From positions 23,510,184 to 23,574,183 of the forward strand of contig CAIIXF020000012.1 in NCBI GenBank assembly GCA_903813345.2: a stretch of 64,000 bases of DNA, in the 5' to 3' direction. The DNA comes from Owenia fusiformis (Eukaryota > Annelida > Polychaeta > Sabellida > Oweniidae). A program made the translations under genes and the position numbers. Below, piece after piece: positions 1,972 through 57,391 of this stretch. How positions within the stretch are numbered: position 1 is the first letter of the stretch; the number at the start of each line of letters is the position of its first letter. The notes beneath the pieces are model-generated. The model was given only the letters and a program-made list of their open reading frames with translations, did not search any database and was not told where the DNA came from.

Positions 1972-2080
1972 GTGTCGATTCCCGAGGTAGAGGCCGTGCC
2001 TAACTATAACCGTGGTGGCGTCACTTACGTGGACATCAACGTAGATGAATATGGACTGTACATCGCCTATGTCCAGAAAG
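1972..2080 (+). CDS. Copy A exon 8 (OLF propeller segment)
   Basis: 109 bases after a CCTACAG acceptor, ending AAAG before GTAATA. It encodes SIPEVEAVPNYNRGG then VDINVDEYGLYIAYVQKG, the OLF strand block corresponding to the family's GG-x-D-x-D-x-x-VDE-x-GL signature. Entry phase 0, exit phase 1, same length as 37128-37236 and 54381-54489. Confidence 0.85.
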
Positions 2081-5000
2081 GTAATATTATATACTAATCA
2101 TCAGTTATCAATCGTGAGGTGTAGAGTCAGGGGTGATGTTCAAATTTCAATTTCATGTGAGAGAACTAAGTTGATTTTTATAGACTTAACGAAAGTTTAA
2201 CATATTAATCCATTTACATTTAAACTTATTTATATAACACCGATGAACATGTACTAGAACTTTTGACATTTTGACAACACCTTTAAAGGGTGACGCATAT
2301 CGTTTAGCAAATCGAACGCTCGTTTCTGGTGTTGCTCACCGTTTAGTATAAAAGGCCCGATCCCGGAATAATACTCACAGGGTTCACAGGCTCGAGGTCG
2401 TTGTGTCAACACCTCTAACTGTTATATAGCATAAGTATAGTATAGATCGTCAAACATTTATAAAAGGGTGATTTTTATTTTGAGAAATCAATTCCACATT
2501 TATGGGTGAAGTTTCAGGATCTTCTATTTGTGTATAATAAGGAAAAAAGGCATCTTTTCCCCATAACGTAATAGCACACAGCTTGGCATATGAAATATCC
2601 TACAAATGAAACAAAGCAGTTCCAATACAAGGATTTATATTGGCTGTTGTAGATGTATTCTTTGAACGCAACCACTCTTTGGATAATGTTTTCAAAATCA
2701 TTATAAACGGATTACTTTATCTCAAAGACAATTTCAATAAACTGGATTTTACAGAACTCCCCTTATTTCTTAAAAATGGACTGATCCAGTTGATTCACCT
2801 GGAGCCGCCATATTGTTTTTATACGGGAAGCTTATCGGAAGCTAAATTAAATAAAAAGTACAAAAAATGACTGCCATATTTTTTTGATAAAGACACATGT
2901 TTTTAAAATCTGTTTACCTTGTATATGAATTGTATATCTTGACAAATGAAACATGTCAAAGTTAACATCACACATAAACGCATTTTTCTAAACTATGAAT
3001 TGGAGGTGTATGAATCCCCAAAGCTAGCATGAAGAGTGCGAAGTGAGGCTAATTTTTGAAAGTTTCAAGGAGTAGCCTTGCAACATGGTGGACATGAAAT
3101 ATTTAGCATTTAGAATTTTAAGCTTAAATAGCATAGGGAGACTGTAAAACCTGTTTTTAGTTACATGTACATAAAGAGAATATATCAAGTTGAATTTTTC
3201 ACTCATGGCTACAATGCATATTTTATCTTTGAATTGATAACTTAAATAATGCATACATGTACATCAAAAGAGAAACAACCCATATATAGTTAAAACTTCA
3301 TTGTCTTGTAGTTTTGGAATGTGATCATCGTTCTTGAACGGTTTGAGAATGATTTATTTGTTAAAACTGCATTGTCTTGTTGTTTTGGATTGTGATCATT
3401 GTTCCTGAACGGTTTGAGAATGAGTTATTCGTTAATTAAAACTTCATTGTCTTGTTGTTTTGAAATGTGATCATTGTTCCTGAACGGTTTGAGAATGAGT
3501 TATATGTTAAAACTTCATTGTCTTGTTGTTTTGGAATGTGATCATTGTTCCTGAACGGTTTGAGAATGAGTTATTTGTAGATTATGACATTGAAAATGTA
3601 GTGTTGCTTCCTTGTGTCCAATTGTAGTTCTCAAAGTTCCCTTTTCTAGAGTGTATGTTTAATATTACCAAAAATATTTTGCAAGTTCCTCAGTACGATC
3701 TCATGTCTTCCAAATTTCTCTGCCATTTGTGTAATCGTTCATATTCAGACTGGACGTGGAAGGACATGTCAAACACATGCATAAATGCTGAAACCGTAAC
3801 ATCCACCACTACATCAACTTTGGAAGAATGTAAACAAAAATGTGTGAATGAGGGAGGGTTTAGGTGTATGTCCATTGACTGGAATTATGGATACCATTAC
3901 TGTAACCTCAAACTACTTGATTCTGGGGATGTGCCTCTTACTTCGCCATGTACCCGCTATGGACATTATTGGTATCACTCTGAACGAAAATTTGCAGATC
4001 CGCAAAGCAAGTATATGTCTTATTAGACTGTATCATGGATAACTTACAGCTGTTCTTTTCATATTGGCATTCATTTCAAAGTTTTGTTGAGGTAGTCAAG
4101 GCACTTACTGTGAGCTAAGTTGGTATTTACATTATCCTGATATTGGTTCATTAAGCAGGTGCTGGTGTTTTTTCTGTGTTCAAAAGTTCCTTTTTGCAAT
4201 ATGTGGTTAGTGTTATTAAGTTTTTCCCTTCCACCATATTGTGTTTACATACATGTTTTATAAATTTCTTAGTATGATCCCATGTCTTCCAAGGTTGTTT
4301 CCCATGTGTGTTATTGTTAATATTCAGACTGGACATGGAAGGACATGCCAAACACTTGTATAAATGCTGAAATCTTAATATCTACCAAAGTTGCTTCTTT
4401 GGAAGACTGTAAACAGAAATGTGTGAATGAGGGCGGGTTAAGATATATGTCCCTTGACTGGATTTACTTTTAAAAGTTGTGTTATCTTAAACTACTGGGG
4501 ATATGTCATCTCAGTTGGACGTATTGGCACCACTCTGAACGAATATTTGCAGATCCGCAAAGCAAGTATTATTAAATCTTGTGATGGATAGCGTGTATGT
4601 TGCTCTTTTCATTATGGCATGTCGTTCCCAAGTTTTATTTTTATAGTGAGTTTGTAGATACACGAAGCTAACTGATATTGGTTCATAAAGCATATGTTAA
4701 TGTGTTTTTTCTATGTCTGAACTTGTCCTGTATTATATTCTTTTCTCATTCCTAAGGGATGTTGTCCAATTATCAACAGCTGTGGAATAATGGAGTTAGT
4801 TTAGGGGGAGGGTGTAAACGATGGTTTTGTTAGCAAATAGTGTTGAATTTTTAACATTCAAGAGAAAGCCAATTGCCAATTTGAAATCAACATTTTAAAA
4901 TTTTATTAGATGAGAGAGGGTCAAACCATAATGAAAAATAACTTCATTAACTGCATTAACTGCATTAATGGTTGAGAAATAGGGATCGAAACCAGCCATA

Positions 5001-28240: not shown

Positions 28241-28294
28241 ATGAAGTTTGTGTTCCTGTTGATAGCTGTATCTGTAGCCTATATGGCAGCAGGG
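28241..28294 (+). CDS. Copy B exon 1: signal peptide
   Basis: 18 codons, MKFVFLLIAVSVAYMAAG, ending exactly before GTGAGT in phase 0. Positive n-region, hydrophobic core and small residues at the end make a secretory signal. The ATG follows GACGAAAAA, conserved in copy C. Confidence 0.9.
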
Positions 28295-31200
28295 GTGAGT
28301 TATATCAGTTAAACTATAACCTCAATGACATGCGCAATAGCCTAGGTAAGTTGTCCGTATACCGGTTGCCAATATAACTTACAATAAATTGCAACTGTAA
28401 TATTAGAATAGTATTTTTCATAGGCGTTTCATCTACTGAAGGTATAGGCTGTTCTTAATCAAGGTAATGTGTTCAATTAAATGAATAATAAAGTCTAATC
28501 AACCTCTTGAATTCCAGGCTCTAAAATCGGCAGAGAATTTTTCATTTTTGCAACCTTTTGACATTTTACTACATACTTATACAATTTTAGATGCTCAACT
28601 GAGTAAAATTAGATGGCAGAGATCATTTCTACACATTTTAAAACAATTTTCGTGTAAATTGGATGTAAATTGTTCAAATAAGATCAATTTTAGTGAACAA
28701 TTTTGTGACGGATTTTCTCGTCACTCTGGGTTTCAAGGTCATTTCTGAGGTGACGAGAAATCTTGAAATCTCGTCATTCCAGGTAGTCAAGAGATTGATA
28801 TAAATGAGTGAACCGTACCTGGTAATGGCCCTGAAGTACACGTTAGCGCGTTTAATCTGATATGGTTCAAAAGTCAAAAGTGTTTTATATAATCATTCAT
28901 TTGCTCAGGATTCTATAAGAGTAAAGAGACAGACATCGGCTCCATCCGGTACCAACACCCCACAACCTGGGGCACTACCCTCAACCACCAGGACATCAAC
29001 TACTACACCGACACAACCCTCTACAACCAACGCACAAACGACATCACCCCCAAGCACCGAGTCTCTCAGTACTTCTCTTGGTGGTTCAATGCCACCCTCA
29101 ACCAAGACACCAACTACTCCTGCGCCACTGCCCCCTACCACCATCCCACAAACGGCATCACCCCCAACCACCAAGTCTCCCAGTACTCACATTGGTGGTT
29201 CATTGCCACTCTCAACCACCAAAACAGCAACTACTCCCGTGCCACTGCCCCCTACCACCATCCAACAAACGGCATCACCCCCAACCACCAAGTCTCCCAG
29301 TACTCCCATTGGTGGTTCATTGCCACTCTCAACCACCAAAACATCAACTACTCCCGTGCCACTGCCCCCTACCACCATCCCACAAACGGCATCACCCCCA
29401 ACCACCAAGTCTCTCAGTACTCCCATTAGTGGTTCAATGCCACCCTCAACCACCAAAACACCAACTACTCCCGCGCCACTGCCCCCTACCATCACCCCAC
29501 AAACGACGCCACCCCCAACCACTAGGACTGTCAGTACTCCCATTGGTGGTTCATTGCCACCCTCAACCAAGATACCAACTACTCCCGCGCCACTGCCCCC
29601 TACCATCACCCCACAAACGACGCTTCCCCCAACCACTAGGATTGTCACTACTCCTATTGGTGGTTCAATGCCACTCTCAACCAATACGACAACTACTCCC
29701 GCGCCACTGCCCCCTACCATCACCCTACAAACGGCACCACCCCCAACCACCAAGTCTCTCAGCACTCCTATTGGTGGCTCATTGCCACCCTCAACCAAGA
29801 GACCAACTACTCCACCTTCACCACCCCCTACCACTAAGGTACCAACCACTTCGCCACAAACCGCTCCACCATCTATCCCAACCACCGAGGCACCAACTAC
29901 CAAGATACTATCCACACGAACACCCCCAACCACAGAAGCACCAACATCAATTTCTCCACCAACAAATACACTAGATCCAGAGGAAAACAATGTCCACGCA
30001 AATGAAACTGATGATCACTGCACATGCAGCATTCGTGGACCTGATATAACAGAGGAAGCGATATGCTACATTGAGAGAGATTACATAGGTAAATAGCATA
30101 TTTACTGACCTTAAACCTTTGAATATTATTCCATAATAACATGTTTTCCTGGGAAATAAACAAAAATGGAATTCAAATTCAAAAAATCCCGTATCTGATC
30201 CCGTATAAGCCGATATCCCGTTTCTGAACCGACTATGGGATGATCTAGTTATCCCATACCAATTTTGGTCATCTGGTTCATATTGTTCAATTATTCACCC
30301 GAGTTCAGAAAATTTCCAACCAACCGTAGGCATTCTTTTAGAATAATTTCTTTGATTTCTTGGCTGTGGTCGGATGTTCACGTTCTTTCAAATATTCATC
30401 CACATTTATTTTCTCGAATCTTTGATTATTAAAATGGATAGGTATCCTCCTTCCCTAATTTAAACCATCAAACGGATCGCGATTGTCGATACAAAACTTT
30501 AAAACAAATATGTTTCAGCAAAGATATTTTGAAATAAATAAGTTATTGATGGTCTTGATGGAATATGATATGGAGAATATATGATATTGGCCTCGGAGAA
30601 TATTATATTTCCCCTCGGGTAATTATATATAAATATCCATATTTCATCCCTAAAATATTCTATATACTAGTCACCTGTCCTCAGTTTATAACTGTGTTTT
30701 TTTTATTTCCACAGAGTTGTTCGATCTTGAAGCTACAATTTTATCAATTGTGGCTAAGGCAGAGGGACTCGCAGCGAATACAGCTGGCGATGAGTTGATT
30801 AGCCTTGAGACACTTATTGAACATTTAGAACTGAATTACCTCAGCCAATCTATGAATATTAATTACGAGGTACATGGATTACTTTTTATATACTTATACT
30901 TCATATAATTAATGCAGTCCAGTTTACACGAGACCAAGCTGATAAACATGTAACTCAATGAGTCAACCAGACTTGTTAAGGAAGAAAAAGTATTGTGTCT
31001 CTTGACCTAACCATACAATATTATATTATCGAATAGCTGTGATCATAAAATAGGGGCAATTACAAACTGTTATATAAAAAAATGTTGAAAAAGTATATCC
31101 ATAGTCATAGATAAAATCAATTTTGGTCCTGAATTTCAAAGATGGATGGATACTCAGTTATACTCAAATATTTCTGAATTTGGATCAAGGTTTGAGGCAG

Positions 31201-34200
31201 GACTGTCCATTAAAATCATTGATTTTCATCCTATCAACAGAAATAAAAATTTACAATCGTTAAAGCATACTTCTGATGACATAAGCGTAGCCGGGGGGGG
31301 GGGGGGGGGCGGAGAGGTACGATGGGTGCCATCAGCCAATAAAAATAAAACCAAAACCATGAGATAGAAGAAGAAAAGAGCTTTAAAATGTTTTTTATTT
31401 AAATCTTTTTGAAGGAATTCGCATCTTTTGACACCCCTTGACTGAAAACCGAATTTTCTTTGGCGATCGCACCCCCGCCCCGACTACGCTCCTGGATGAT
31501 GCAAACAAATTTCTCCTTACATCTGGACTGTGACTTAATGTGAAAAAACGAAAGTAATGTGGATTAGGAGAAATAGAAATAACATTAAAAAGTATTAGGG
31601 ACAATCAACAAATGATTAAAAATATACAATAACATCATAATATAAAACGTATCAATGGTACTGGACTCACATGGTGTTGTTTTACTAGTTTTCTGGATAA
31701 AAAGTCCAAAATAACTACATATACTAGAAAATCCAGAATGTCCAAAGACAACCCACTTGTAGACTTTTACACCGAAAAAACATCCCTGGATGTTTTAGAT
31801 TGATCCATGAAACCAGTTGGCTCAAAACGTGTAGTAGAGACTTTACAGACAAGATTTTATGCTAGAAAATCCAAAAGGGAGCAGATATATGCATTTTTGA
31901 CAATCTTGTTTTACAAAATCAACTCATAAGACTAATGTTAACAGTGACATAGGATTTTACAATGCAGGACACCTGTAATTATTCATACAGCTAGTAACTG
32001 CTGAAAAATTATGAACGACAAAAATGGCAGCCATTTTGAAAATAGGCAAGAATGTATATACTATTGTATTGATAACAAGTATAAGCAAGTTTAAATATGG
32101 ACAGCATAAAATTTGGCAAGCTTACTTGAACACGTGCTATGTATATCCAAACGAATAAAAAAAAATCTAGTTGCAACTTGGAACCTCAAAATAGTGTTCC
32201 AGTAAAACACAAAAATATTAGATTTATTTTTTTCTTGTAGTCTTTAGAGGAAATCAAAGAAAAACTTCAACTAATCACATTCATTGTGGAAAATCTTGAT
32301 GTTAACAAGACAGCGGAGGCCCTAGTGAACCAGATGACGGCGGATATGTGGATCGCTTCAGAAGAGGTGGATGAACGCATGGAACTCAACAGTGTTTACA
32401 TTCACAAAACTTTAGTGAACCAAGTAAGCAATTAAGCAATGGACTCTTTGTTTCTCCTAGAATTCCAGCCTGGAGACCAATGTATACTTATCTATCTGTT
32501 GTAAAGTCCAATCAGAGACATGTAAGTACATTTTATAGTTTTCAGAGTTAGACTTGGAGACCCGGGCAGTTGGCAGTTCTATACAATAGTCTCATAGTAT
32601 TGATTTACTCTTTGTTTCTCTTAGATTGCAGACCTGGAGACCAAGGTAGCTGGCTGTGCCATAGGTGGCGAGAGCATTGATGAAATAGGGGCATCATATT
32701 TCCCAGCAGATTCAAGACCTATTAGAGATTTGGATCAAAGTATGTATAATTATTACTGCGTTGATGTTGTTAATATAAGAAGCCATCAATATTCAAAGCT
32801 GTCTCAACATTTCGTCCCATTATTTCCACATTGTTATAACTCACTTTTTACAGGTTTGGAGATAAGTATACTATCTTTCTCATTTTTTTTCACGAGGAAT
32901 TCATTTCTGAGGTCCATTTTAATGGATCTCATCTCCTTTTGGTGATATCCAGTGCCACATTGTTATAAGCGCAAAATGAGAAAAAATTTAGGCCCATCTT
33001 GTCATATCCGTTTGGGTAGGCAGCAGAGCCAATCAGATACATAATTTGGACCATGTGACTAATATTTATAACAATGTGGAAATAATTGGATGATCTCTTA
33101 CTAGTATACTTTGCAGGTAATTAACAAAGGAGATCATAAAGCATGACACCATACATATAGTACAAACAAAAGAAAGCAGATTTGACATTATTTGTAACAA
33201 AAAAGTTCATTCAGTGAACTTAATCCAGGCCCGTAGCCAGGATTTGCCAAGGGGGGGGGTTCACATTTGACAATTGTGGCCCAAATTAGGCTAAAATCAC
33301 TAGAGAAGTCCTCAAAATGGTCAAAAACTGCATGAATTTGAAATAATTTTTGGCCAGGGGGGGGGGGGGGGTTCTCCCGAACCCTGCAAACCCCCCCCCC
33401 CTGGCTACGGGCCTGTAATCAATTACTGACCCATAGTCTTTTTTACCCTTGTCATGTGCCTTTTAAAGATGTGGTGGATTATCAAAAATATTTACAATAT
33501 TTCGCAGTTAAGTTGTGTTGTTATGGCACCCACTTGACCAATCATGATCAAACTTGTCATAGCAACTAACTATATATAGATACATAATCCCTAAAAATAT
33601 GAATGTGATTAAAGGTATACAGGGTGTCCCGAAAGTATGCCCCCCCCCCTAGGCAGACATATACCAGTGTCGTCATAGTATGTTTCATATATCATTTTAA
33701 AGCTTATCCAAAGTTACATTGATTCACCAAGTATCATGGTGAACTCTCAAATGTGAAAAAATTACAGGCATTTCAAAATTTAGTGTTTGGTCAAAATTAA
33801 GTTCAATTTTACACCAAATCACTAGTCAATGTGTCCTCCTGGGCCATCTTAACAGCAGCAAATTATTTTCGGGTCGGATGGATAATGAGTTGGAAAAAGA
33901 GAACGGTGAGGGTAGAAACTCAAAGGAAACTCCTCTAAAGTGCAAGGGTGACGCATATCGTTTAGCAAATCGAACGCTCGTTTCTGGTGTTGCTCACCGT
34001 TTAGTATAAAAGGCCCGATCCCGGAATAATACTCAAGGGTTCACAGGCTCGATGTCGTTGTGTCAACACCTCTAACTGTTATATAGCATAAGTATATTAT
34101 AGATCGTCACATATTTATAAAACGGTGATTTTTATTTTGACAAATCACTTCCACATTTATGGGTGAAGTTTCAGGATCTTCTATTTGTGTATAATAAGGA

Positions 34201-37200
34201 AAAATTGACATCTAAATTTCCCCATCACGTAATAACACACAGCTTGGTATATGAAATATCCTACAAATGAAACAAAGCAGTTCTAATACAAGGATTTATA
34301 TTGGCTGTTGTACATATTCTTTGAACGCAATCACTCTATGGATGTTTTCAAAATCATTATAAACGGATTACTTTATCTCAAAGACAATTTCATTAAACTG
34401 GATTTTACAGAACTCCCCTTATTTCTTAAAAATGGACTGATCCAGTCGATTCGCCTGGAGCCGCCATATTGTTTTTATACGGGATGCTTATCGGAACCCT
34501 TTAAGAGGGTTATAAAATTCCACACCCTTATTTGAAGGGCTTTTAAGGTCATATTTGAAAATAATTGCGGCTGTTAACATGTCCAAGGGGGGACTTATTG
34601 ACTCGTAATATGGTGTAAAATTGAACTTTTGTTTTATTCATTGTTAATCAGTGATTTTTGCTCTGCAAGGCCTACATATATACATGATTACCTATACGAA
34701 AAAATAAGTTTTTAAAAATTACCACTCAAAAGTTATGAAGACCTAAACTTCAACCTCTGATTTTTCAATATCAGCGGAAATGCAATTGCAACAATGTGGA
34801 AATAATGGGACGATTTATATATTGATAAATAATACATACACGATAACATGCTAACTTTATTTTCTCTTTGGTTCCATACCACATTGACCCAGAAATGTTG
34901 TTTACATTTACATGTATATAGCACTAAGCACATAAACTAAAATGCTATCTTTTCAAACGATGTAAAGAAGAGCACAGCTCTATAAGTGAAGGATATAAAG
35001 AGTCTTATCATACATTTAGGCTTTAGATAAGTACGTGATAGAATTGACAAATGACTATCTTTTGTATTTTCAGGCTTCTGTGAACGTAACACCTTCACAG
35101 GCGTTGGCTGGCCAATGACACACTCCATTGAGTCTAGTGTGGGATGGTGGATGAAAGACCCAATATCCGACTCTCCAGAGAATCGCACTGCCATCTATTA
35201 TGTGGCAGGAAATAGTGGTAATCTATACATGTACAAGTGGAACAACTATCATTCTATGTGGACCCGTGCCTCAAAGACTAGCCTCGGCCAGACAGCCAAG
35301 TATTATTTTGAATATTCATACACAGAGTGCATTTGCAAATGGTATTATATAAATGCATAGTACTACATACAAATTAGTAATGCATATCCATAATTATTAG
35401 CAGTTATGCCCCTATCATTGAATATATGCCTGAGGTCTGTTATCAATATAGCCCGAGCTTGTGAGGGTTATATTGACGACGGACCGAATATTCAATGATA
35501 CGGACATAATTGTTGTATTGCATACCTAAAGAATAACATAACATTTCATGAAGATAATATGGAGAATTGCATGAAAAAAACAAAACTTTACACGATTCCA
35601 GTCGAAATCACTTTGTTTACATGTTATGACGTCATAAATCGTCATGGTAAAAATGTTTGGCGGTTATACAGGAATATATACCCGACCTTCAGCTCCATTG
35701 ACCTCCATACAAATGCTTCGCTAGGTATGTAATACTATGTAATATGAACCCATGCTTTAAAGACTTCCCTTGGTCACACAGCCAAGTATGATTTTGATTT
35801 AATTTGGACATGGCAATGTGTATTGCATGATATATCCACATAATTAAGTTTAGTGGTTGTGTAAATGAGATGCTAGTAAGTTCAGCCATGTATGAATTAA
35901 CATTGATTCGGAATTGATAAATATCAGAATTTTTGAACACATGAAAATGATCTGAGGATATGTACAGCTTAGTTTTGTTTTTCCTGTTTCAGACACATGT
36001 ACGGGACAAACCATGCATTGTTCAATGGATCCCTCTACTACTATTCAAGTCAAAAGACCATTGAAAGAGTTGACTATAGAACATGGTCACCAAAAGCATC
36101 GGTAATTAAGATTTTGCTTCTGTTGTCTAAATTGGATTAAAAAAGTAGTCTACATGAAAACGAACCTCCAATGTGGGTCAAAACTGCTTTTTTACCACAT
36201 ATTTTTTAAACGTTTAACTTGGGAGTTGTATGCATTAAAATCAGTATGCAGTATGCAAAATCAGTCTATATCTAGTCATATATAGCGCGTCTATTAAATT
36301 GGAGATAACATTGCTGGGAAGTGACAATTTCAACAACACAAGAAATTGAGTATTTTTACAAACAAGGATTTATTGATTGATCAGTAATTTTGTTATTTGA
36401 AATGGCATTTATTAAAGAGAGAATCAGATCTAGCGAGCAGCCAAACAAAAAAAATTCAATTTTAGAATCTTCCTGGCTTTTGTCATTCCTTTTTTGTCTA
36501 TTTGCTAAAAATCCCCAAAGTGCACACTTTATTTCAGGAAAACTAAAGATGTTTACAATAATGTATCATTTTTCTATAAAAATGTTTACCATTCTTATTA
36601 TTTGGGAGAATTTAAACATTTTTCACCCATTTTTGCACCTTGAATCCTTAATAATCACTTCACCTATTTATAATTACATATCGTGAATCTTTTGGGAGAT
36701 ATTGTATTTGAGATTGTAATGAATAGATTTGTATGTCAATGTTACATATTGCTTGTAATTTTGTCAACCGCCCTATAGATCTGATTCTGCCTTTTAATCA
36801 AAAATTTTCCCACATTTAGTGTTAAATCAGCCAAATACATTCATCCAAACGAAAACATTTAAGGACTAGATTTTAAATATTTTGCATGTACAGACCTGTT
36901 ATCATCAAAAGGTTTAGTTTATTTGATATTTGTGTATAAATATTATTAATAAGAGGGGCTCTATGACCGAGCCTTTCGGTACAGCATATTGAATTGTATT
37001 TAAATTAATCTATATTTAATATCTGTTATTCAAATCTTAAACATCTAATACTGTATTTGGTTTCAAACTAAACCTTGGGTTGTAGTTGGCTTACTTTTTC
37101 CATCTTAAAACTAACCTTTTCTTTCAGGTGCCAATTCCCGAGGTAGAGGCTGTGCCAAACTATAACCGTGGTGGATACACTTATGTGGACTTCAACATAG

Positions 37201-39689
37201 ATGAATATGGACTCTTCATTGCCTATATCCAGAAAGGTGACACTTTACTACAGAATTAATGACTTCAGACGTGATCTGGAGGGCAACTTGTCCAAACAAC
37301 ATGTAAAATAAAGTGTTACAGTTGTTACAGTTTATGTGACCTCCTCCATTAGGCTTTATGTTAGTTGACGTTGATTAAAGATCCTTTGTTTTACACCGAG
37401 GAAATCGCCCTTACCCCAAATGACTGATTGTGATTCAAAGTAGAAAAATAATCGAATTAGAATTAAAGAACGATAGATTTGAGAATAAGCTTGGAATAAG
37501 ATCATCATTTGACACTCTGCCTTTGTGAATGTAGGTTATCTCGTACTTGTTATTTGATGTTGCTTACTCTTGGACATTTTGGTTTTTTTAAGGTTCCCTT
37601 TCCTTTTCTTAATGTTGTTAAATATCTTACTTACTATCTCGTTGCGCTTACATAAAGATAATTTGTTTATCCCTATTATATCATGTGTAACCAAGTTTGT
37701 CTTACATTATGTCATTGTTAACATTCAGACTGGACATGGAAAGACATGCCAAACACATGCATAAATGCTGAAACCTTAACAGCTACATCAGCATCAACTC
37801 TGGAGGAATGTAAACAGAAATGTGTGAATGAGGGAGGATTTAGGTGTATGTCCCTTGACTGGAGTGTCCACCTCAAGCAATGTAATCTCAAACTACGTTA
37901 TTCTGGGAATCATCCTCTTACCTCGCCATGCACATATAGATGGCACAAGTACTACTGGCGTACAGGACAATGGCACTACTCTGAACGAAAATTTGCAGAT
38001 CCAAAAAGCAAGTACTCGTATTATCAAATCCTGTAATATGTTAAGACGTTTTTGAATTTTTGCAAATAAGCCCATATGTATTCTAGATGCTCATTGGCTT
38101 ATTCATGATCACATCATATGCAATGTAGATGAACTAATTAATCCCTGGAAAGTCCTATATCCCTGGGAACGGGTTAGATGAAATGTACTAATCACCAGTG
38201 AAGTCATGTGACCAGTCATTAGTACATTTTATCATCCCTGCCAGCTGTGATTTATAGGACTGTTGAATGGCAAAATGCCTTAAATGCCAATAAGAACCTG
38301 TACGCATTGAATGTTGCAATTAAGACTTCTGATTTTGTTCTTTGTTTACAGAGTACATGGAGTAAATAATAAAACAAATATATAGTGCCTATGACTTTCT
38401 CCAACGTCGTAGAAAAATTGCCTTAACAATCATTGGAACGCTGTACTATAAGTCATCGAATTGGATGACAAACAAGTGACATTATATAGTAGATTAACTG
38501 GATTGGTCTTTTCCCGAAATCGGAAATACTAAAACTGAAATTGTTTAACATGTAATTTCAGGAACATCCTACATCCAAATCAAACAACTCAACCCGATTG
38601 ATCTGACAGAAATACGTCATTGGAGCACTCACGCTGCTAAGAGTAGCATCAGTAATTTGTACTTTGTGTGCGGCGTTATGTACACCATGGATTCCTCGAA
38701 CACCCCAGTACCAAGTAGAAGCCAGTATGCATTCGATACAAGAGGTAGAACTTTCTTTCATCAATAAGCATAAAAACACTAATAGGCTATGAAAAAATCG
38801 AATTCCCTGGAAAAATTCTTGTTTCAGTATTTCAGAAAAAATACTCTTTTTGCACTGATTTAAACAAATTAAAATGTTCTGTTTCTCTCCACTTTTTCTA
38901 TGTTATTAGACCATTCTGCTTTCAAGGCCAGTCAAAAATATAACTCATTGACCGGAAAAGTAATCTTTAATGAATAGTTTTGGTCACTACGGAGTATCGG
39001 GATCCGCTATAGTAGAGTCCATTAATCCTAGCCTACACCCCATACTTTCGAAATATAAATCCGTACCAGACGTAATGAGCTGACTTTAAACTGACTTTCG
39101 ATTTATAATCAACAGTCCAAAAGATACGCCAATATCTCAATCACTTGTTGTGTACGTTTATGGCATTTTGTTTTGGAAATAAGACCAAAATTCGCGATTC
39201 AAATTCTGAAGTGAACAAAATAGCGGCTGTTTGTATTCGAATTTTGTAATCACGACATGACCATATATGGCACAATATAGAGTTTGACCCTAGGAGCCAA
39301 TCCTCCTTGGCTTATGACTGATACGTCTATTTGAAAATAAATTCTCAGTCTCACTTCATAAAAACTTCAATAAATTCATTATTAATAAGTACATTCCTTT
39401 ATTAAGATTTTTGTTTTAAGTTTTCAGAAAAAATGTCTGATTCTATATTGAAATTATAGTTAACATGACATCATTGTTGAAGAATATATATTTTTCAGCT
39501 GATGGTGGGAGAGGTGCGAGTTTTATGACTAAAATCGCAATCCCTGCCGTGTACAAAAATATGGTTCAACTAAGTTATGAACCGAATAACAGGATGCTAT
39601 TTGCAATGGATAATTTGCATCTGACGACGTTCACACTGTTGTTTGAACCCAAGGCAGTCCCTAGTGCAACTACCACTCATGCGCCTTAA
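28241..39689 (+). CDS. OLF gene copy B: secreted mucin-stalk-olfactomedin protein with optional PAN
   Basis: Exons 28241-28294, 28909-30088, 30715-30869, 32241-32423, 32625-32739, 35074-35299, 35993-36101, 37128-37236, [37729-38007 PAN], 38562-38744, 39499-39689. All junctions are GT-AG except the PAN donor (GC). Joined, this is 834 residues without PAN and 927 with it. Order: signal peptide 1-18, RVKR site 22-25, mucin repeats, CTCSIRG...C motif, helical stalk, OLF domain from FCERNTFTG to LLFEPKA. N-glycosylation sequons include NET, NKT, NRT and NGS. The family (amassin, gliomedin, olfactomedins) acts outside the cell in adhesion and matrix binding. A role in coelomocyte, mucus or epithelial adhesion is inference. 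Identical exon phases and very similar introns show a recent common origin with copy C. Confidence 0.85.
28909..30088 (+). CDS. Copy B exon 2: furin site and mucin domain
   Basis: 393 codons plus one base. Opens DSIRVKRQTSAP: R-V-K-R fits furin-type cleavage and would leave an N-terminal Gln. Then about 6.5 copies of a 38-39-residue repeat (STKTPTTPAPLPPTT, then TTKSxSTPIGGS), rich in Thr, Pro and Ser and therefore probably O-glycosylated. It ends HANETDDHCTCSIRGPDITE and a third Cys. The antisense strand is also open over this exon because of codon composition. Confidence 0.9.
30715..32739 (+). CDS. Copy B exons 3-5: helical stalk
   Basis: Exons 30715-30869, 32241-32423 and 32625-32739 (phases 1-0, 0-0, 0-1). 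They encode DLEATILSIVAKAEGL, LETLIEHLELNYL, SLEEIKEKLQLITFIVENLD, ASEEVDERMELNSVY and IADLETKVAGCAIGG. Leu/Ile/Val spacing and acidic/basic content suggest coiled coil, the usual oligomerising segment before an OLF domain. One Cys (KVAGC) could form an interchain disulfide. Confidence 0.8.
31284..31490. mobile_element. CGTAGCC-type MITE in copy B intron 3
   Basis: GCGTAGCC plus a run of 17 G (31293-31309) at the left, and CCCCGACTACGC at the right. Copy C has the left end at 50211 but lost the right end. Confidence 0.55.
32812..33105. repeat. Inverted repeat in intron 5
   Basis: CATTATTTCCACATTGTTATAA near 32817 is inverted at about 33066-33095. The same structure is in copy C (51470-51755), so it predates the duplication. 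A further solitary arm occurs at 34789. Confidence 0.6.
33226..33415. mobile_element. MITE with CAGGCCCGTAGCCAGG ends, only in copy B
   Basis: CAGGCCCGTAGCCAGG and CCTGGCTACGGGCCTG are perfect inverted ends, with G- and C-runs just inside. TAATC flanks both sides. Copy C has the uninterrupted site near 51890, showing insertion after the B/C duplication. Confidence 0.75.
33946..34496. repeat. TATA-containing interspersed block, second copy
   Basis: Matches 2288-2840. Absent from the equivalent intron of copy C, so it also inserted after duplication, together with flanking sequence that begins with a transposon-like end, CAGGGTGTCCCGAAAG, at 33618. Confidence 0.55.
35074..37236 (+). CDS. Copy B exons 6-8: first half of the OLF propeller
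   Basis: Exons 35074-35299 (phase 1-2), 35993-36101 (2-0), 37128-37236 (0-1). They encode GFCERNTFTG (first OLF Cys is FC), VGWWMKDPI, AIYYVAGNSGNLYMYKW, HMYGTNHALFNGSLYYY, VDYRTWSPKAS, then VPNYNRGGYTYVDFNIDEYG. The G-T-x-H-x-x-x-NGSLYY and GG...D...DE-x-GL blocks are diagnostic of OLF domains. The donor of exon 6 (GCCAA before GTATTA) is chosen because it alone restores KHMYGTNH. Confidence 0.85.
35375..35720. mobile_element. Foldback MITE in copy B intron 6
   Basis: Copy C has no equivalent of this stretch. It holds ATCATTGAATAT inverted as ATATTCAATGAT and CAATATAGCCC...GGGTTATATTG. Exact ends uncertain. Confidence 0.5.
35745..35795 (+). pseudogene. Relic of a duplicated exon 6 end
   Basis: GAACCCATGCTTTAAAGACT...CACACAGCCAAGTATGATTTTG resembles the end of exon 6 and its donor (GACCCGTGCCTCAAAGACTA...AGACAGCCAAGTATTATTTTG). 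Copy C has the same relic at 52994-53044. Confidence 0.5.
37729..38007 (+). CDS. Copy B exon 9: PAN/apple cassette
   Basis: 279 bases, 93 codons, phase 1-1, between ACATTCAG and GCAAGTAC. Encodes DWTWKDMPNTCINAETLTAT, LEECKQKCVNEGGFRCMSLD, QCNLKLRYSGN and ERKFADPK. Six cysteines match a PAN/apple fold. Skipping gives Gly at the exon 8/10 junction; inclusion through the GC donor gives Arg; both keep the OLF frame. Reading past the donor adds SKYSYYQIL and a stop, so unspliced use would cut off the OLF domain. GC-AG introns are often alternatively spliced, so an optional insertion is likely. Confidence 0.7.
38562..39689 (+). CDS. Copy B exons 10-11: second half of the OLF propeller
   Basis: Exons 38562-38744 (183 bases, phase 1-1) and 39499-39689 (stop TAA 39687-39689). 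They encode TSYIQIKQLNPIDLTEIRHW, SNLYFVCGVMYTMDSS, ADGGRGASFMTKIAIPAVY and LSYEPNNRMLFAMDNLHL. FVCG supplies the paired OLF cysteine. The last residues are Thr/Pro-rich. Confidence 0.85.
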
Positions 39690-40160: not shown

Positions 40161-40532
40161 CGAGTCCCGCGCAAATGTTTTTATATGCGTTGAATTACTT
40201 CACTTGTAGAGAAATATGGTGTCTCTTATTGGTAACCTCTCTGTTTATTTTGTTTCCTAGCTTTTATACTGTGAATCATGTTATCGAATATTTTGAAATT
40301 ATTGAAGACATATTAATTCATAATAAGATAAAATTGAAATGTCATTTCTCAAGTATGCTGTATTTTACTTCATCGATCAAAAAGTGTTCATCAAAATAAA
40401 GAGCAATTACGAGCCTCATTACAAGCCCCGTACGGGCAAGTACAGTACTCGAAAATGACGAGCCATTACGGGCCTTGTTACGGGCCTCGCACAGGCAAGT
40501 ATGAGCAAATATGGGGATCAAAATTTACGACT

Positions 40533-41106
40533 TATGGCTGGCCATCTGGACCAATGTATCGTCATACTTTTAACGCCGTAAAATATACTTTTAACGCCGT
40601 AAAACGATTTCATAAGCCGTAAAGAATTACTTTTAACTATCTGGCCATCTGGACCAATGTATCGTCATACTTTTAACGCTGTAAAATCTACTTTTAACGC
40701 CGTAAAACGATTTTATACGCCGTAAAGAATTACTTTTAACGCCGTTGAAAACGATTTTGTACGCCGTCAAAATTGATTTTTACGCCGTTAATTAGTTTTA
40801 CGAAGTCAAAAATAATTATGTACAGCGTTAAAAAATTCATTTTGAATGGCGTCAAAAATCATTTTTAACGCCGTAAAAATCGGTTTTGACGGCGTAAAAA
40901 ATAATTTTTAAAAGCTTAAAAATCGGTTTTGACGGCGTACAAAATCGTTTTTAACGGCGTTAAAAGCAATTCTTTACGGCGTTTAAAGTATTTATTACGG
41001 CGTGAAAAGTAGATTTTACGGCGTGAAAAGTAGATTTTACGGCGTTAAAATTAGATTTTACGGCGTTAAAAGTATGACGATACATTGGTCCAGACGGCCA
41101 GCCATA
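40533..41106. mobile_element. Foldback element made of ACGCCGT/ACGGCGT repeats
   Basis: TATGGCTGGCCATCTGGACC at the left is inverted at 41080-41106. Between them about 25 copies of a degenerate ~21-base unit (TTTTTACGCCGTTAA / TTTTGACGGCGTAAAA) switch orientation near 40850. A partial extra end occurs at 40640. Tandem-repeat-built inverted ends resemble Galileo/FB-type foldback transposons. Confidence 0.65.
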
Positions 41107-41290
41107 TTTAACGCCGTTAAAAAAGATTTTGTACGCCGTCAAAATTGATTTTTACGCCGTTAATTAGTTTTACGGAGTCAAAAATGATTATATACGACGT
41201 TAAAAGCATTTTGAACGGCGTCAAAACTGATTTTTTACGCCGTTAAAAATTATTTTGTACGGCGTCAAAATTGATTTTTTACGCCGTTAA
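41107..41290. repeat. Further ACGCCGT array
   Basis: About eight more units of the same 21-base word, not closed by an inverted end on the right. Confidence 0.7.
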
Positions 41291-41499
41291 AAATTATAGC
41301 TGGCAGCCAGTAAAAACCAGCGTTACAATCTGTATATTCGACGTATATTCGTGTATGTTCCACTTACCGACTGATTGATATAAATCCCAAACCCTATTTT
41401 TCTGTTACTGTATGTCACATTTATCATTTATATTGGCATTTTTATTTGCGAGACGCATTAGGTTGTATGGAAGACTACAACTATCCCGGGAATTTGATA

Positions 41500-42529
41500 T
41501 ACGAGGGTTGATCATAAAGTTCTCATAATATCTCTCTAATTTCTTTATTTTTCAATATATTCTATTGAAATTTTCACAGAATGTGCAGCATGGAATGTCT
41601 AATTAATTCAGGAAAAAATATTTAGTTTAACAGAAATATTAAATAAGAAATGGTTGCCATAGTAACAGGAAATCAAGGCACCAGGGGCAAATAAAAATAA
41701 CTGAGAGAATGAGCTTAATCAACCATGTTTAAATACATAATAAACTCCCATGAATTACCAAACACGTTAAAATGTTAACTTGAATATGTTGTAAAGTGCT
41801 TTAAGAATTTAATAAATCGATCGTGTAAATTGTGTGATGTCATAGGGGGTGCTTTCATGCTCCATTAGATGTGATACCGGAGTCTAAGACTCAAAGCTAA
41901 TGATCAGAAATGACTGAGTTAGAGAATGCAATAGATGCAGAGATCTTCAGAAAAATAAAATTCATACTGATAAAATGTTATGTTAAGTTTGTAAGATCCT
42001 TTGGTCAGACTAAACATGATCTAAAACAAATATATTGCTTAGATATCAACAAAATTACACCCTGTGTGTGGTCTGTACATGTTAAAAATGAACTAAAGGG
42101 GCAAAATCAATTTTCGTCAGGATATTTGACAAAACAGTCATGGGGTCTAACAGTCACTTCTAATGAAGCATAACAATCATCCATTATGAGATCAAACAAT
42201 TCACATGACCATTATAGTAGTTCACGACAGTCAAGAGCCCATATTATTTGACAATTTACTGTGTTTGATACCTTATTTGACAACTTATTATGTATTTAAA
42301 CATGGTTAATGGGGGTTATTCTAGCTAGTTTTTTATTTGCCCCGGATGCCTTGATTTCAAGTTACTATGGCAACCATTTCTTATTTAATGTTTCTGTTAT
42401 TCTAAATATTGTTTGCTGGATTAATAAAATATTCCATGCTGCACATTCTGTGAAAATTTCATAGGAAAAAATATTGAAAAATAAAGAAATTAGAGAGATA
42501 TTATGAGAACTTTATGATCAACCCTCGTA
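41500..42529. mobile_element. Mariner-type element with long (about 230 bp) inverted ends
   Basis: TACGAGGGTTGATCATAAAG at 41500 is inverted as CTTTATGATCAACCCTCGTA at 42510-42529, and the match runs inward about 230 bases (TTCTCATAATATCTCTCTAA; ATGGTTGCCATAGTAACAGG). TA on both sides. The interior 41910-42173 has an 87-codon frame starting MTELENAIDAEIFRKIKFI with no transposase signature that I recognise. The CGAGGG terminus is shared with the fossil mariner at 58840-59832, which may belong to the same family. Confidence 0.75.
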
Positions 42530-42679
42530 CATCGAGTTTTCATTGTTTTTTAATTGTCGACATATGTCGCCTATTTGTCGCTCAATTTACTGCATAAATA
42601 CCAGCCTATTTTCACTTTGCTGCGCCATTTTGAAATACCACTTGTTTGAAATGATTGTTTTGATTGGTTGAGCAAAATC

Positions 42680-43145
42680 ATTTTTTACGCCGTCCAAAAT
42701 CATTTTTAACGGCGTAAAAACAGTTTTTACGGCGTAAAAAATAATTTTTAACGGCGTAAAAATCAGTTTTGACGGCGTAAAAACAATTTTTAACGGCGTA
42801 AAAATCAGTTTTGACGGCGTAAAAAATAATTTTTAACGGCGTAAAAATCAGTCTTGACGGCGTAAAAATAATTTTCAACGGCTTAAAAATCGGTTTTGAC
42901 GGCGTACAAAATCGTTTTTAACGGCGTTAAAAGTAATTATTTACGGCGTATACAATCGTTTTTACGGCGTTAAAAGTATTTATTACGGCGTGAAAAGTAG
43001 ATTTTACGGCGTTCAAAGTATTACGTTACATTGGTCCAGACGGCCAGCCATATTTTACGGCGTTAAAAGTATTTATTACGGCGTGAAAAGTAGATTTTAC
43101 GGAGTTAAAAGTATTACGATACATTGGTTCAGACTGCCAGCCATA
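42680..43145. repeat. ACGGCGT array with foldback ends
   Basis: More units in the ACGGCGTAAAAATCAGTTTTG style, ending with ACATTGGTCCAGACGGCCAG near 43028 and a second copy of that end near 43118. Same family as 40533-41106. Confidence 0.75.
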
Positions 43146-43483
43146 ATTACTTGGCTCGTTATGGGCACCGTACGGTCAAGTACGGTGGTCGAAAATTACG
43201 AGCTATTACGGGCCTTGTAATCTATACTAGTAAACCCAAAGGTTACTTGATTATTTTTGTTTGATTAAATAGTGCTCAAAGATCCAAGACCTCTAAGAAT
43301 CTAAGACCTTAATCTGGGTAGCTCCCTGCTTGCATAATATTATATTGTTATGCTACAGTACATTATGATGAAGAATAAACATGGTATTTTATGAAGTTTC
43401 ATTTCCTGAATGACGGAAGTAACAAGTACCATTATTAATTCAGTATTATAATTTGTCAAACTGAAAAGTGTGTAATGTTTTAC

Positions 43484-43645
43484 CGATGAATTTGGAAGCT
43501 GTTGCCTTTAGTTCCTCAAGTTTGTCATATTTTGCTTGAGGAGTACACATATATGCTGGTCGTGACACTTCTGGTGACTTTACTATGCATTCACACCAAT
43601 ATTCTTTCGCAGAAGTCACCAACTGGTACCTACTGCCATGTACTA
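43484..43645 (-). CDS. Conserved minus-strand exon, function unknown
   Basis: 162 bases, phase 1-1 with acceptor TTACAG and donor GTAAAA (minus strand). Encodes QLVTSAKEYWCECIVKSP, EVSRPAYMCTPQAKYDKLEE and LKATASKFIG. In the duplicate at 61544-61685 the WCEC..VKSPEV stretch differs mostly at third codon positions, which argues for past coding selection. If the donor is not used the frame runs 14 codons to a TAA. No family recognised. Confidence 0.4.
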
Positions 43646-43666
43646 CTGTAATATATGGTCTAAAAC

Positions 43667-44145
43667 ATTGCAACACTGGTGATCCGCTCGATTACGGTGG
43701 TTACCTTATTTCTGGTCCTTATTTCACAAGTTGTAGGCAGAATCCCCACAACATTTTTTCTCACAAACGTCTATCAGTATCATATGTTTTAGAAAATGTA
43801 TATGTTTGTGAAAAATAGCTCGGGAGATAGCAGAATCGTCTATTTAATTCCTCACTTTAGTTACAGAAACGGTATGGGTTAAAAGTGCAGATCTTAACTG
43901 TTTTTCAAAATACCGTTTATGTAACTTTAGTGAGGAACTAAATCGACGATTCTGTTGTCTTCTGAACTATTGTTCGCAAATATGTACATTTTGTAAACAT
44001 ATGATACTGATACAGGTTTGTGGGAAAAATGTCGTGGGGCTTCCGCCTACAAAGTGTGAAATAAGGAAAAAGAAAAATTGTACCTACGGCGTAACGACAT
44101 TTTGTTACGGAAACGGTACCAACGTGATCGAGTGGATCATCAGTG
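43667..44145. mobile_element. Foldback element, absent from the duplicated flank
   Basis: CACTGGTGATCCGCTCGATT at the left is inverted near 44119-44145 (TGATCGAGTGGATCATCAGTG). The arms are related to 17414-18172. The duplicate flank at 61690-61715 reads straight through (GTCTAAAACAAACGATG), giving the empty site. A 3-base AAC is at both junctions. Confidence 0.75.
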
Positions 44146-44369
44146 AACAAACGATGTATGAGTTGTATTTCGTACATAATCAATGTTGTTGAGAATTTCT
44201 GTTGACCCGAGACGTTCTGAAAGCATATAAGAATGTCTTGGCTTGACTCGGTTCCTGCTAAAACGATGCCATCAAACAAATTAAAATGACACAAAGAGTA
44301 CATTTGCAAGCATGCAAACAATGAATGTCCAATAGAAAAACGAAACAAAATGAATAGATAATAGATTAC

Positions 44370-55000: not shown

Positions 55001-57391
55001 TGTCATTGTTAACATTCAGACTGGACATGGAAAGACATGCCAAACACATGCATAAATGCTGAAACCTTAACAGCTACATCAGCATCAACTCTGGAGGAAT
55101 GTAAACAGAAATGTGTAAATGAGGGAGGATTTAGGTGTATGTCCCTTGACTGGAGTCTCCACCTCAAGCAATGTAACCTCAAACTGCGTTATTCTGGGAA
55201 TCATCCTCTTACCTCACCATGCACCTACACGTATAACGAGCGATACTACTACCGCTACAAATGGCGTACCCGTACTGCAACAGGACACTGGCATCACTCT
55301 GAACGAAAATTTGCAGATCCAAAAAGCAAGTACTCGTATTATTAAAATCCTGTAATATGTTAAGACGTTTTTGAATTTTTGCAATAAGCAACAGCCAGGA
55401 GTAAATAATATAACAAATAGTGCCTACGACTTTCTCCAACGTCGTAGAAATACTGCCTTAGCAATCATTGGTACGCTGGACTTTAAGTCATGGAATTGAA
55501 TGTCCAACAAGTGACATTAGTATATTTACTGGATTGGTCTTTTCCTGGAATCGGAGAAACTAAAACTGAAATTTTTTATCATGTTATTTCAGGAGCATCC
55601 TACATCCAAATTAAACAACTCAACCCGATTGATCTGACAGAAATACGTCATTGGAGCACTCACGTTGCCAAAAGTAGCATCAGTAATTTGTACTTTGTAT
55701 GCGGCGTTATGTACACCATGGATTCTTCGAACACCCCAGTACCAAGTAGAAGCCAGTATGCATTCGATACAAGAGGTAGAACCTTCTTACGTGAATCAAC
55801 ATAATTCTCTGGAAAAAATTCTTGTTTCTGTATTTTAGAAGAGCAAAACTTGTTTATCTGAAAAAAACTTTTTGCGTTGATTAAATAGAAAAGGTTTTCC
55901 TGTTATTCTACTTTTTTATTTATGTTACTGCACCATTCCGGTTGCGAGCGGATCCCATCCAGGCTAGTCAAAAATATAACTAGTTGACAGGAAAATGAAC
56001 TTTAAAGAATAGTATTAGTCACTACGGATCCGCTATAGAGAATCCATTAAACATTCCATACCCCATACTTTCGAAACATTAATCCGTACTAGACGTAATC
56101 GGCTATATGGTATGGCCTATGGGCAAGGCTCCCAGGGACGCAACTTGATATTTTCAGAATGTTTTCTGGCATTATCACTGACTATAAATTCATAATCAAT
56201 AGTCCAAAAGATTCGAACCAATATCTCATTACTTCTTCGAATTTTGAAATCACGACATCGCCATATATGGCAGAAAATCAAGTTGGAACCATGGGAGCCA
56301 ACCCTCCTTGGCCTATGATACTTCGATTTGAAACTACAATCACTCTCACTATATGAGAAACTTTTTTCATTAAGTGCATCTCCTTTTCAAGCTTTTTGTT
56401 TCAAAGGTCCATGTGCAGTATGGCAAGTGATTTTAGACAGTCATATCTTTCACCATGAGTACTTTCTGGGCATAAATATAGTGTTTTTTATTAAAACAAT
56501 ATGTTTTGTTTCAAGTAAAGTACCCATGATGATAAAAATATCGAACATTTCGAAAAATTATTAATATTATTATATTAATTAATTATTATTAATTATTAAT
56601 CAACAGTTTTTAATAATGTTGAACCTATTTACTTAAAATAGGATCTCCCTTTCTGATATTTATTGCATGAAAAGATTATTCAAAAAGGGGTCCAAAACTT
56701 CTTCAAAAGTAGAATGATATTGAAAGCCTAGTTTTGAAGATATCAATTTTCGATGACCCGAATTATGCTGAAAACAATGGATAGCACGAATTTCCCCTAT
56801 GGGAAAATAACATGAGATATGTGTTTTTAACTTTATTGCATTTCAATACCAATCCCTTTTTCAGAAGTTGTTAATATAGTGTAGAAGAAACTTTCGATAA
56901 AGTATAATCGAGAAAAACAAGATCCTCTTTGTAGAAAATAAGTCTAACATTTTTTAAAAAGTGGGATCCTAAACCATAATTTTTCAGAGAGTTGGATTGA
57001 TATTTTACTAAAACGGGAACTTCACTTGAAAGAAAACATATTGTTTTTATAAAAACCACTATATTTATGGCCAGAAAGAACCCATGGTGAAAGATATTAC
57101 CGTCTAAAATCACTTGGCATACTGCACGTGTACCTTTTCAGAAAAAATGTCTGACTCTATATTGAAATTATAGTTTAATTGAAGAATATGTTTTTTTCAG
57201 CTGATGGTGGAAGAGGTGCGAGTTTTATGACTAAAATCGCAATCCCTGCCGTGTATAAAAATATGGTTCAACTAAGTTATGAACCGAATAACAGGATGCT
57301 ATTTGCGATGGATTCTTCACATCTGATGACATTCACACTGATGTTTGAACCCAAGGCAGTCCCTAGTGCAACTACCACTCCTGCGCCTTAA
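46006..57391 (+). CDS. OLF gene copy C: secreted mucin-stalk-olfactomedin protein with optional PAN
   Basis: Exons 46006-46059, 47015-48413, 49629-49783, 50901-51083, 51279-51393, 52674-52899, 53242-53350, 54381-54489, [55020-55325 PAN], 55593-55775, 57201-57391. Joined: 907 residues without PAN, 1009 with it. All phases match copy B. Larger than B because of two more mucin repeats and a PAN cassette nine residues longer. Same secreted architecture and inferred role. Exon 5 uses GTTTGT as donor where B has GTATGT. Introns closely resemble those of B apart from transposon insertions private to one copy, so the B/C duplication is recent. Confidence 0.85.
46111..46254. mobile_element. GC-rich foldback MITE in copy C intron 1
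   Basis: TTGGTCACATTTGCTCCGAT is inverted as ATCGGAGCAAATGTGACCAA, with CGGCCGGCGCCC/GGGCGCC inside. Copy B lacks it (GGTAAGTTGTCCG is continuous at 28345). It lies only about 50 bases after exon 1. Confidence 0.75.
46334..46953. mobile_element. MITE with AACCCTA/TAGGGTT ends in copy C intron 1
   Basis: AACCCTAAAG at the left and CTCTAGGGTT at the right. Just inside, GGGGGATACAAAGTATCCCC pairs with GGGGAGGGTACTTTGTACCCC, and GGAGTTCCTAA with TTAGGAACTC. Absent from copy B near 28828. Confidence 0.65.
47015..48413 (+). CDS. Copy C exon 2: furin site and mucin domain
   Basis: 466 codons plus one base. Opens DPTRVKRETPAPSS, with the same RVKR cleavage motif, leaving Glu. About 8.5 repeats of 38 residues (PSTKTPTTPAPLPPTTTLQT, then APPLTTKSPSTPIGGSMQ). 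Units 3-4-5 and 6-7-8 share the order LQM, PLQT, TLQT, so a three-unit (342-base) block was duplicated. Repeats are more alike than in B. Ends with the same CTCSIRGPDITE motif. Confidence 0.9.
48540..49620. repeat. Tandem duplication inside copy C intron 2
   Basis: The block starting with CCTGAACCGACTATRGGATG at 48548 restarts at 49123, about 580 bases later, making this intron 1215 bases against 626 in copy B. Both halves contain the 27-base palindrome GCGGGCAGATATA-C-TATATCTGCCCGC (48852-48878 and 49416-49442). Around 49012-49125 a further inverted repeat (GGTTCAGGATATTGGGATTA / TAATCCAAATATCCTGAACC) spans the junction. Confidence 0.7.
49629..51393 (+). CDS. Copy C exons 3-5: helical stalk
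   Basis: Exons 49629-49783, 50901-51083, 51279-51393. DLEATILSIVAKAEGLTSNT, SLEEIKEKLQQIAFVVENLD and IADLETKAAGCAIGG; substitutions from copy B are few and keep the hydrophobic spacing. NKT sequon retained. Confidence 0.8.
52674..54489 (+). CDS. Copy C exons 6-8: first half of the OLF propeller
   Basis: Exons 52674-52899, 53242-53350, 54381-54489. Almost identical to copy B: GFCERNTFTGIGW, WWMKDPIPDSPENRT, GTNHALFNGSLYYY, VPNYNRGGYTYVDINIDEYG. Confidence 0.85.
55020..55325 (+). CDS. Copy C exon 9: PAN/apple cassette
   Basis: 306 bases, 102 codons, phase 1-1. Same core as copy B with a Tyr/Arg-rich insertion after SPCTY (NERYYYRYKWRTRTATGHW) of nine residues net. Acceptor ACATTCAG, GC donor GCAAGTAC. 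Past the donor the frame stops after SKYSYY. Confidence 0.7.
55593..57391 (+). CDS. Copy C exons 10-11: second half of the OLF propeller
   Basis: Exons 55593-55775 (acceptor TTTCAG then GAGCATCC) and 57201-57391 (stop TAA at the end). ASYIQIKQLNPIDLTEIRHW, SNLYFVCGVMYTMDSS, LSYEPNNRMLFAMDSSHLMT. Ends in a Thr/Pro tail. Confidence 0.85.
56401..57139. mobile_element. Foldback element in copy C intron 10
   Basis: AAAGGTCCATGTGCAGTATG at the left is inverted at the right as CATACTGCACGTGTACCTTT. The arms run about 160 bases through TGATTTTAGACAGTCATATC and ACATATTGTTTTTATAAAA. Copy B reads through at the matching place (39415-39430). Confidence 0.75.

Follow-up and report, generated by a model that had tools for sequence, protein, structure and literature searches.

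A 64,000-nucleotide stretch of the Owenia fusiformis genome (contig CAIIXF020000012.1, positions 23,510,184 to 23,574,183 of the forward strand; hereafter the window) carries a tandem array of olfactomedin (OLF) genes on its plus strand, with copies designated A, B, and C. In gene B, the OLF domain is interrupted by an exon, exon 9, whose translation matches the PAN domain, a small module type that is frequent in binding roles. The reading that we favor, with moderate confidence, is that exon 9 is a working exon of the OLF gene: a symmetric PAN module, spliced through a GC-AG intron, whose inclusion is probably regulated and whose product would stand on the channel-entrance side of the OLF propeller. 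The elements on which the argument turns are as follows, in window coordinates.

37729..38007 (279 bp), plus strand: gene B exon 9, the PAN exon, phase 1-1, six cysteines (from Pfam PAN_1, boundaries, and substitution ratios)
38008..38014, plus strand: GC-type donor GCAAGTA of gene B exon 9, identical in 4/4 copies, with the weakest computed U1 pairing in gene B
37932..37979 (16 residues), plus strand: hypervariable PAN segment of gene B, with 25 residues in gene C and 9 in gene A
3749..4006 (258 bp), plus strand: gene A exon 9, PAN exon with GC donor
4328..4561 (234 bp), plus strand: gene A exon 9', the dead copy, a tandem duplicate of exon 9 with one stop and with acceptor and GC donor kept
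55020..55325 (306 bp), plus strand: gene C exon 9, PAN exon with GC donor

The exon 9 translations of all three intact copies (3/3) score above the curated cut-off of Pfam PAN_1 (PF00024; 21.4 bits), with 30.8 bits for gene B (E-value 2.6e-7), 32.2 for gene A (9.8e-8), and 29.0 for gene C (9.4e-7), and the best stretch covers positions 5-58 or 5-59 of the 76 in the profile. PAN domains are defined by a core of four to six cysteines (PMC9249922); exon 9 has six, all of which are kept in A, B, and C. In gene B, the exon lies between the acceptor acattcag (first exon bases ACTGGA) and the donor gcaagtac (last exon bases CAAAAA), and the probability of an open frame of 92 codons arising by chance at this base composition is about 0.001. 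Nei-Gojobori ratios of nonsynonymous to synonymous substitution (dN/dS) in exon 9 are 0.32 (B-C), 0.36 (A-B), and 0.27 (A-C). Since the synonymous distances (dS) are 0.53 (A-B) and 0.59 (A-C), this constraint has been acting for some time. The OLF exons 6-8, 10, and 11 give dN/dS values of 0 to 0.36, and the linker exons 3 and 5 give values near 1 between B and C, with few changes. A PAN exon acting as an independent gene was rejected, as the frame that holds it (37722-38036) runs from an upstream stop through the acceptor; no signal peptide is seen in this frame by eye. Relatives of the PAN exon were not confirmed among viral and prokaryote contigs, nor relatives of exon 10 among viral contigs, results that are uninformative on rarity among animals.

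The surrounding domain is an OLF domain that the exon splits. Joined without exon 9, gene B exons 6, 7, 8, 10, and 11 match Pfam OLF (PF02191) as a whole at 140.1 bits (cut-off 23.9) over profile positions 5-245 of 246. When exon 9 is added, the OLF match falls to 126.4 bits and breaks into two stretches, the best of which ends at profile position 142 of 246, and PAN_1 appears. The original prediction, of a PAN exon at 37729-38007 inserted in an OLF domain between IAYIQKG and SYIQIKQL, in a loop between strands, is thus borne out; in the PDB alignment, the insertion falls in the myocilin loop between strands VIYS and IVLSKL. The predicted boundaries are likewise confirmed, giving a phase 1-1 exon of 258 (A), 279 (B), 306 (C), and 234 (dead copy) bases, as is the statement that a stop follows within ten codons if the GC donor is ignored: translation beyond it reads SKYMSY (A), SKYSYY (C), or SKYSYYQIL (B) and then ends.

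The OLF fold is a five-bladed propeller. The strands of each blade run up and down, and the long loop that links blades II and III (beta8-beta9; B-10/C-11) is found on the face where it covers the central channel (PMC4396693, PMC4488277). Judging from the alignment and this published strand order, the insertion would follow the second strand of blade C/III, on the same face as the channel-capping loop. In latrophilin-3, surfaces of blades II and III take part in the FLRT site. Given this face and these surfaces, the PAN domain would lie at, or next to, a surface through which OLF domains are known to make contacts.

Of the two motifs described as invariant in OLF domains, DExGLW and CG (PMC4206993), CG is present and DExGLW is replaced by DEYGLF (B, C) or DEYGLY (A), with loss of the tryptophan. 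The myocilin calcium ligands are at positions 380, 428, and 478; the Asp-Asn-Asp triad is present in some OLF domains only, Asp-Asn-Ser is the commonest triad in Nematoda, and the myocilin D478S variant, which has an Asp-Asn-Ser triad, does not bind calcium (PMC6719662). By alignment, the triad of the Owenia domain is Asp-Asn-Ser, with Asp478 replaced by serine, and position 478 is also marked in the alignment by the D478S chain 6ou3. Positions 380 and 428 were assigned by a hand count that takes the myocilin C-terminus to be residue 504. The Asp-Asn-Ser triad made calcium binding by the OLF domain less likely in our assessment.

The GC-type donor GCAAGTA ends exon 9 in all four copies, as had been predicted. 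The remaining modeled internal donors are all GT (20/20; nine in B, nine in C, and two in A), in part because GT sites had been favored in the modeling of gene B. The 7-mer GCAAGTA itself occurs six times on the plus strand of the window against 3.9 expected, whereas a 32-base pattern built from the four exon ends and donors is found, at up to three mismatches, in exactly those four places, with none expected. Across the last 25 exon bases and the donor, only three positions vary among the four copies, the dead one included. Between A and B (ungapped), the first eight intron bases agree at seven positions after exon 9, compared with five after exon 8 and six after exon 10, and intron bases 9-38 agree at 14/30, 7/30, and 22/30 positions, respectively. 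The GC site has therefore been kept slightly better than the GT sites.

Pairing was computed against the 5' end of U1. The exon 9 donor gives -2.8 in B and C and -3.3 in A, the weakest value in each gene, while other donors range from -2.9 to -10.4; gene C exon 5 (-2.9) is nearly tied with exon 9. Pairing of this strength is not unusual in itself, being reached by 11-19% of 1857 plus-strand GC dinucleotides. The donor consensus is (A/C)AG before the junction and GT(A/G)AGT after it, and GC sites are usually closer to the rest of this consensus (PMC2490688). Genes with alternative splicing are enriched for GC donors, and regulated splicing of Caenorhabditis elegans let-2 needs its GC donor (PMC2490688); a second paper also links GC donors to alternative splicing (PMC7242645). 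The weak U1 pairing of the exon 9 donor fits regulated inclusion but falls short of showing it. Spliced in silico, gene B yields 927 amino acids with exon 9 and 834 without it, and gene C 1009 and 907, with no internal stop in any form. Regulated inclusion is probable because the frame is kept either way and because the donor is the weakest of its gene.

Further bearing on skipping comes from exon 9', which lies 579 bp downstream of exon 9 within gene A. The duplication includes flanking sequence (3674-4088 vs. 4253-4639, 74% identity). Exon 9' carries an in-frame TAA, and the fourth of its six cysteines is changed to tyrosine, the other five being aligned. Its dN/dS against the other copies is 0.22-0.44, which suggests that it died recently. 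The dead copy of the original prediction is therefore dead indeed, but belongs to no fourth gene, being a tandem exon duplicate inside gene A. As exon 9' keeps its splice sites and contains a stop, it must be skipped if gene A makes a full-length protein, and it offers a natural test case for exon skipping. Skipping is favored, short of proof, by three features of the sequence: a weakly pairing donor, a plain OLF frame that stays intact, and the dead exon 9'.

Several observations weigh against this interpretation, in part with respect to the PAN fold and in part with respect to the donor. The AlphaFold model of the PAN domain, built from the three copies, is of moderate confidence (mean predicted local distance difference test score, pLDDT, 63.9; predicted template modeling score 0.48), and a single-sequence model of the gene C domain is poor (51.2). 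In favor of the PAN fold, the best Foldseek matches of the model in the PDB are plasminogen, the NK1 fragment of HGF, and a Sarcocystis lectin (top E-value 0.038, probability 0.96), which we take to be PAN-domain proteins, the Foldseek output being silent on the domain aligned. None of the 146 Foldseek matches reaches an E-value of 0.001 or below; among the top matches listed, the TM-score is about 0.4 and the root-mean-square deviation is mostly above 6 Å. A phmmer search of gene B exon 9 against PDB chains returned no match at E-values up to 10. As to the donor, the intron start is less well kept after exon 9 than after exon 10, and the base at -1 is A in 4/4 copies, in place of the consensus G, with GCAAGT on the intron side in 4/4. 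Among in-phase GT or GC sites beyond base 150 of exon 9, which were considered as alternative donors, gene B has a GT donor at 37960 (GGC followed by GTACAGGA) that pairs better with U1 than the GC site (-5.0 vs. -2.8). The original claim that the exon is a multiple of three only if it ends at the GC donor thus stands insofar as the frame is kept at GCAAGTA and fails in its exclusivity. The counterpart of the 37960 donor in gene C reaches -1.7, no other such site in gene A betters -1.5, and splicing at 37960 would lose the tail SERKFADP, which is identical in A, B, and C.

The alternative that survives best, though we regard it as rather unlikely, is that exon 9 is always included, so that the PAN domain is a permanent part of the protein and exonic enhancers make up for the weak GC donor. 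The small variation across the last 25 exon bases and the donor (the three positions given above) is what an enhancer-supported site might show, and the protein-level constraint seen in all intact pairs of exon 9 agrees with permanent inclusion. It is harder to reconcile with exon 9', which keeps its splice sites but bears a stop and so must be skipped if gene A makes a full-length protein, with a donor that pairs more weakly than any other of its gene, and with the completeness of the plain OLF form. A markedly less probable alternative is that exon 9 serves as a terminal exon, read into its own stop and poly(A) site to give a truncated OLF protein ending in PAN. The stops 6 to 9 codons beyond the donor in A, B, and C would allow this, and an AATAAA or ATTAAA hexamer occurs within 600 bases past the donor in each; yet the tails diverge beyond the donor, in contrast to GCAAGTA itself, which all four copies retain, the first hexamers lie at unequal distances (546 in A, 333 in B, and 266 in C), and such hexamers occur about 2.3 times per kb on this strand. 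That the PAN exon is a disused relic, persisting only through recent duplications, is very improbable: one of the four copies is dead, but the other three are open, with cysteines and splice sites intact, dN/dS near 0.3, and dS of 0.53 and 0.59 for A-B and A-C.

For the favored reading, in which exon 9 is a working and probably regulated exon, the following course may be proposed. Exon 9 would have arisen by gain of a PAN module, symmetric in phase 1-1, and would be spliced in frame through a GC-AG intron, a step for which the sequence gives good support. The product would probably be a secreted OLF protein whose PAN domain projects at the channel entrance of the propeller, from the loop that joins strands 2 and 3 of blade C/III. 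Inclusion of the exon, probably regulated, would yield a plain OLF form and a PAN-bearing form. The inserted domain, originally proposed as a carbohydrate- or protein-binding module, could then supply another binding site and mask or remodel the ligand face of the OLF domain, much as the alpha-I domain does on integrin propellers, and gene duplication may have varied one predicted PAN hairpin, the likeliest contact site.

This last step refers to the hypervariable segment, which sits between the sixth cysteine and the last nine codons of exon 9. Between B and C, exon 9 shows one residue difference in the 67 codons to the sixth cysteine and none in the last nine. Within the segment, even a favorable B-C alignment leaves 6/16 aligned residues different, plus nine inserted, against 23/418 residues elsewhere (exons 3-8, 10, and 11). 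For substitutions alone, the binomial P is 1.6e-4, a value that is indicative only, as the segment was picked after seeing the data. In the moderate-confidence model of gene B, the segment lies within a strand pair (70-80 and 83-92), and we infer that this varied, predicted hairpin is the likeliest contact site. Diversifying selection, or slippage in a tolerant loop, would either of them produce such a segment. A bolder proposal, to which we give tentative standing at best, is splice-switched recognition, in which tandem OLF genes would use a regulated GC donor to place a PAN domain on the ligand face, with its hairpin varied from copy to copy. If true, each gene would encode both a plain, adhesive protein and one whose specificity is its own.

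The genes to which these exons belong were modeled as listed below. Exon boundaries in gene B were set by eye from reading frame and splice sites, with frame-keeping GT sites favored, and the exons of genes C and A were placed by alignment from gene B.

28241-39689, plus strand: gene B, 11 exons, boundaries by eye
28241..28294, plus strand: gene B exon 1, carrying the start codon and, by eye, a likely signal peptide
28909..30088, plus strand: gene B exon 2, RVKR site, then Thr/Pro/Ser-rich repeats
30715-30869, 32241-32423, and 32625-32739, plus strand: gene B exons 3-5, linker, possibly coiled coil
35074..35299, plus strand: gene B exon 6, start of the OLF domain (Pfam OLF)
35993..36101, plus strand: gene B exon 7, OLF
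37128..37236, plus strand: gene B exon 8, OLF, ending in the PAN-receiving loop (IAYIQK, with G completed across the junction)
38562..38744, plus strand: gene B exon 10, where OLF resumes (TSYIQIKQL)
39499..39689, plus strand: gene B exon 11, end of OLF and stop codon
46006..57391, plus strand: gene C, 11 exons
1972..2080, plus strand: gene A exon 8
14848-15030 and 15335-15525, plus strand: gene A exons 10 and 11

By eye, the protein has a short hydrophobic N-terminus, an RVKR site, which we take to be a furin motif, Thr/Pro/Ser-rich repeats, a linker, and a C-terminal OLF domain; the product is probably secreted. Exon 2 of gene B encodes 26.7% threonine, 22.9% proline, and 11.7% serine. Its tandem repeats are of 117 bp in gene B (about 7 copies, 28977-29797) and of 114 bp in gene C (about 8.5 copies, 47135-48108), so that repeat number differs between the two genes. 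In both gene B (35733-35822) and gene C (52996-53088), intron 6-7 holds a decayed second copy of the exon 6 3' end. Only exons 8-11 of gene A (1972-15525) fall in the window, and alignment from gene B gave no usable match to gene A exons 6 and 7 inside it. Much of the gene A intron between exons 9' and 10 is filled by a large diverged repeat array (6526-14459), its units measuring about 133 and 475 bp. Repeats with ACGCCGTTAAAA-like units, both tandem and inverted, are densely packed in 40532-43146. Three pieces of the segment 61297-63110 match, at 89-96%, the DNA that precedes gene C (43247-45602), suggesting that another copy of the gene begins outside the window; within the window, no third exon-1-like sequence occurs at up to three mismatches. 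No Rfam family matched at the gathering threshold.

In the literature searched, no report was found of OLF and PAN domains in one protein; this search covered publications rather than protein databases or animal genomes, and no priority can be claimed from it. One paper, in the excerpt available, names olfactomedin and the apple domain in a figure abbreviation list, without placing them in one protein. Exon 9 may be seen as a familiar module set inside a familiar fold, at a site that is unusual; a described relative may exist. The ligands of most olfactomedins are unknown (PMC6719662), and an OLF domain with and without PAN would provide a testable pair of forms of one protein. A second domain naturally inserted at a defined loop also shows where the propeller fold tolerates change.

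Among the closest known systems is the OLF family itself, with myocilin, then noelin, latrophilin, and gliomedin as the solved relatives in order of score. The Owenia proteins share with it a full-length match, the CG motif, residues that align with Asp380 and Asn428, a C-terminal OLF domain, and likely secretion (by eye); they differ in the PAN domain in the blade C/III loop, the change of Asp478 to serine, the DEYGLF or DEYGLY motif, and the long Thr/Pro-rich repeat region. The amassins of sea urchins, which act in coelomocyte adhesion, are likewise OLF proteins of invertebrates; they form a family of several members and have coiled coils (PMC4206993). The excerpted text of that paper mentions no PAN domain for the amassins, a comparison drawn from description.

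For the splicing of the exon, the likeness is to GC-AG exons of the let-2 type, in which a GC donor is suited to regulated inclusion (PMC2490688), a property that the Owenia donor may share. Few nematode GC donors are conserved (5/26; PMC2490688), whereas the present one is shared by four copies of one genome. Kept through both gene and exon duplication, it is well suited to testing whether regulation is what maintains weak donors.

For the architecture, the closest working analog would be the integrin alpha-I domain, in which a whole domain is inserted in a propeller, the ligand range is widened, and the ancestral pocket is obstructed (PMC12422189). Pfam finds PAN_1 and OLF in the OLF-PAN part and no vWFA; the integrin domain serves as an analogy only. 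If the proposed placement holds, the Owenia proteins would join the integrins as an example of a propeller with a module on its binding face; in integrins, the module is a vWFA domain rather than PAN and is inserted between blades of a seven-bladed propeller, whereas here the insertion lies within one blade.

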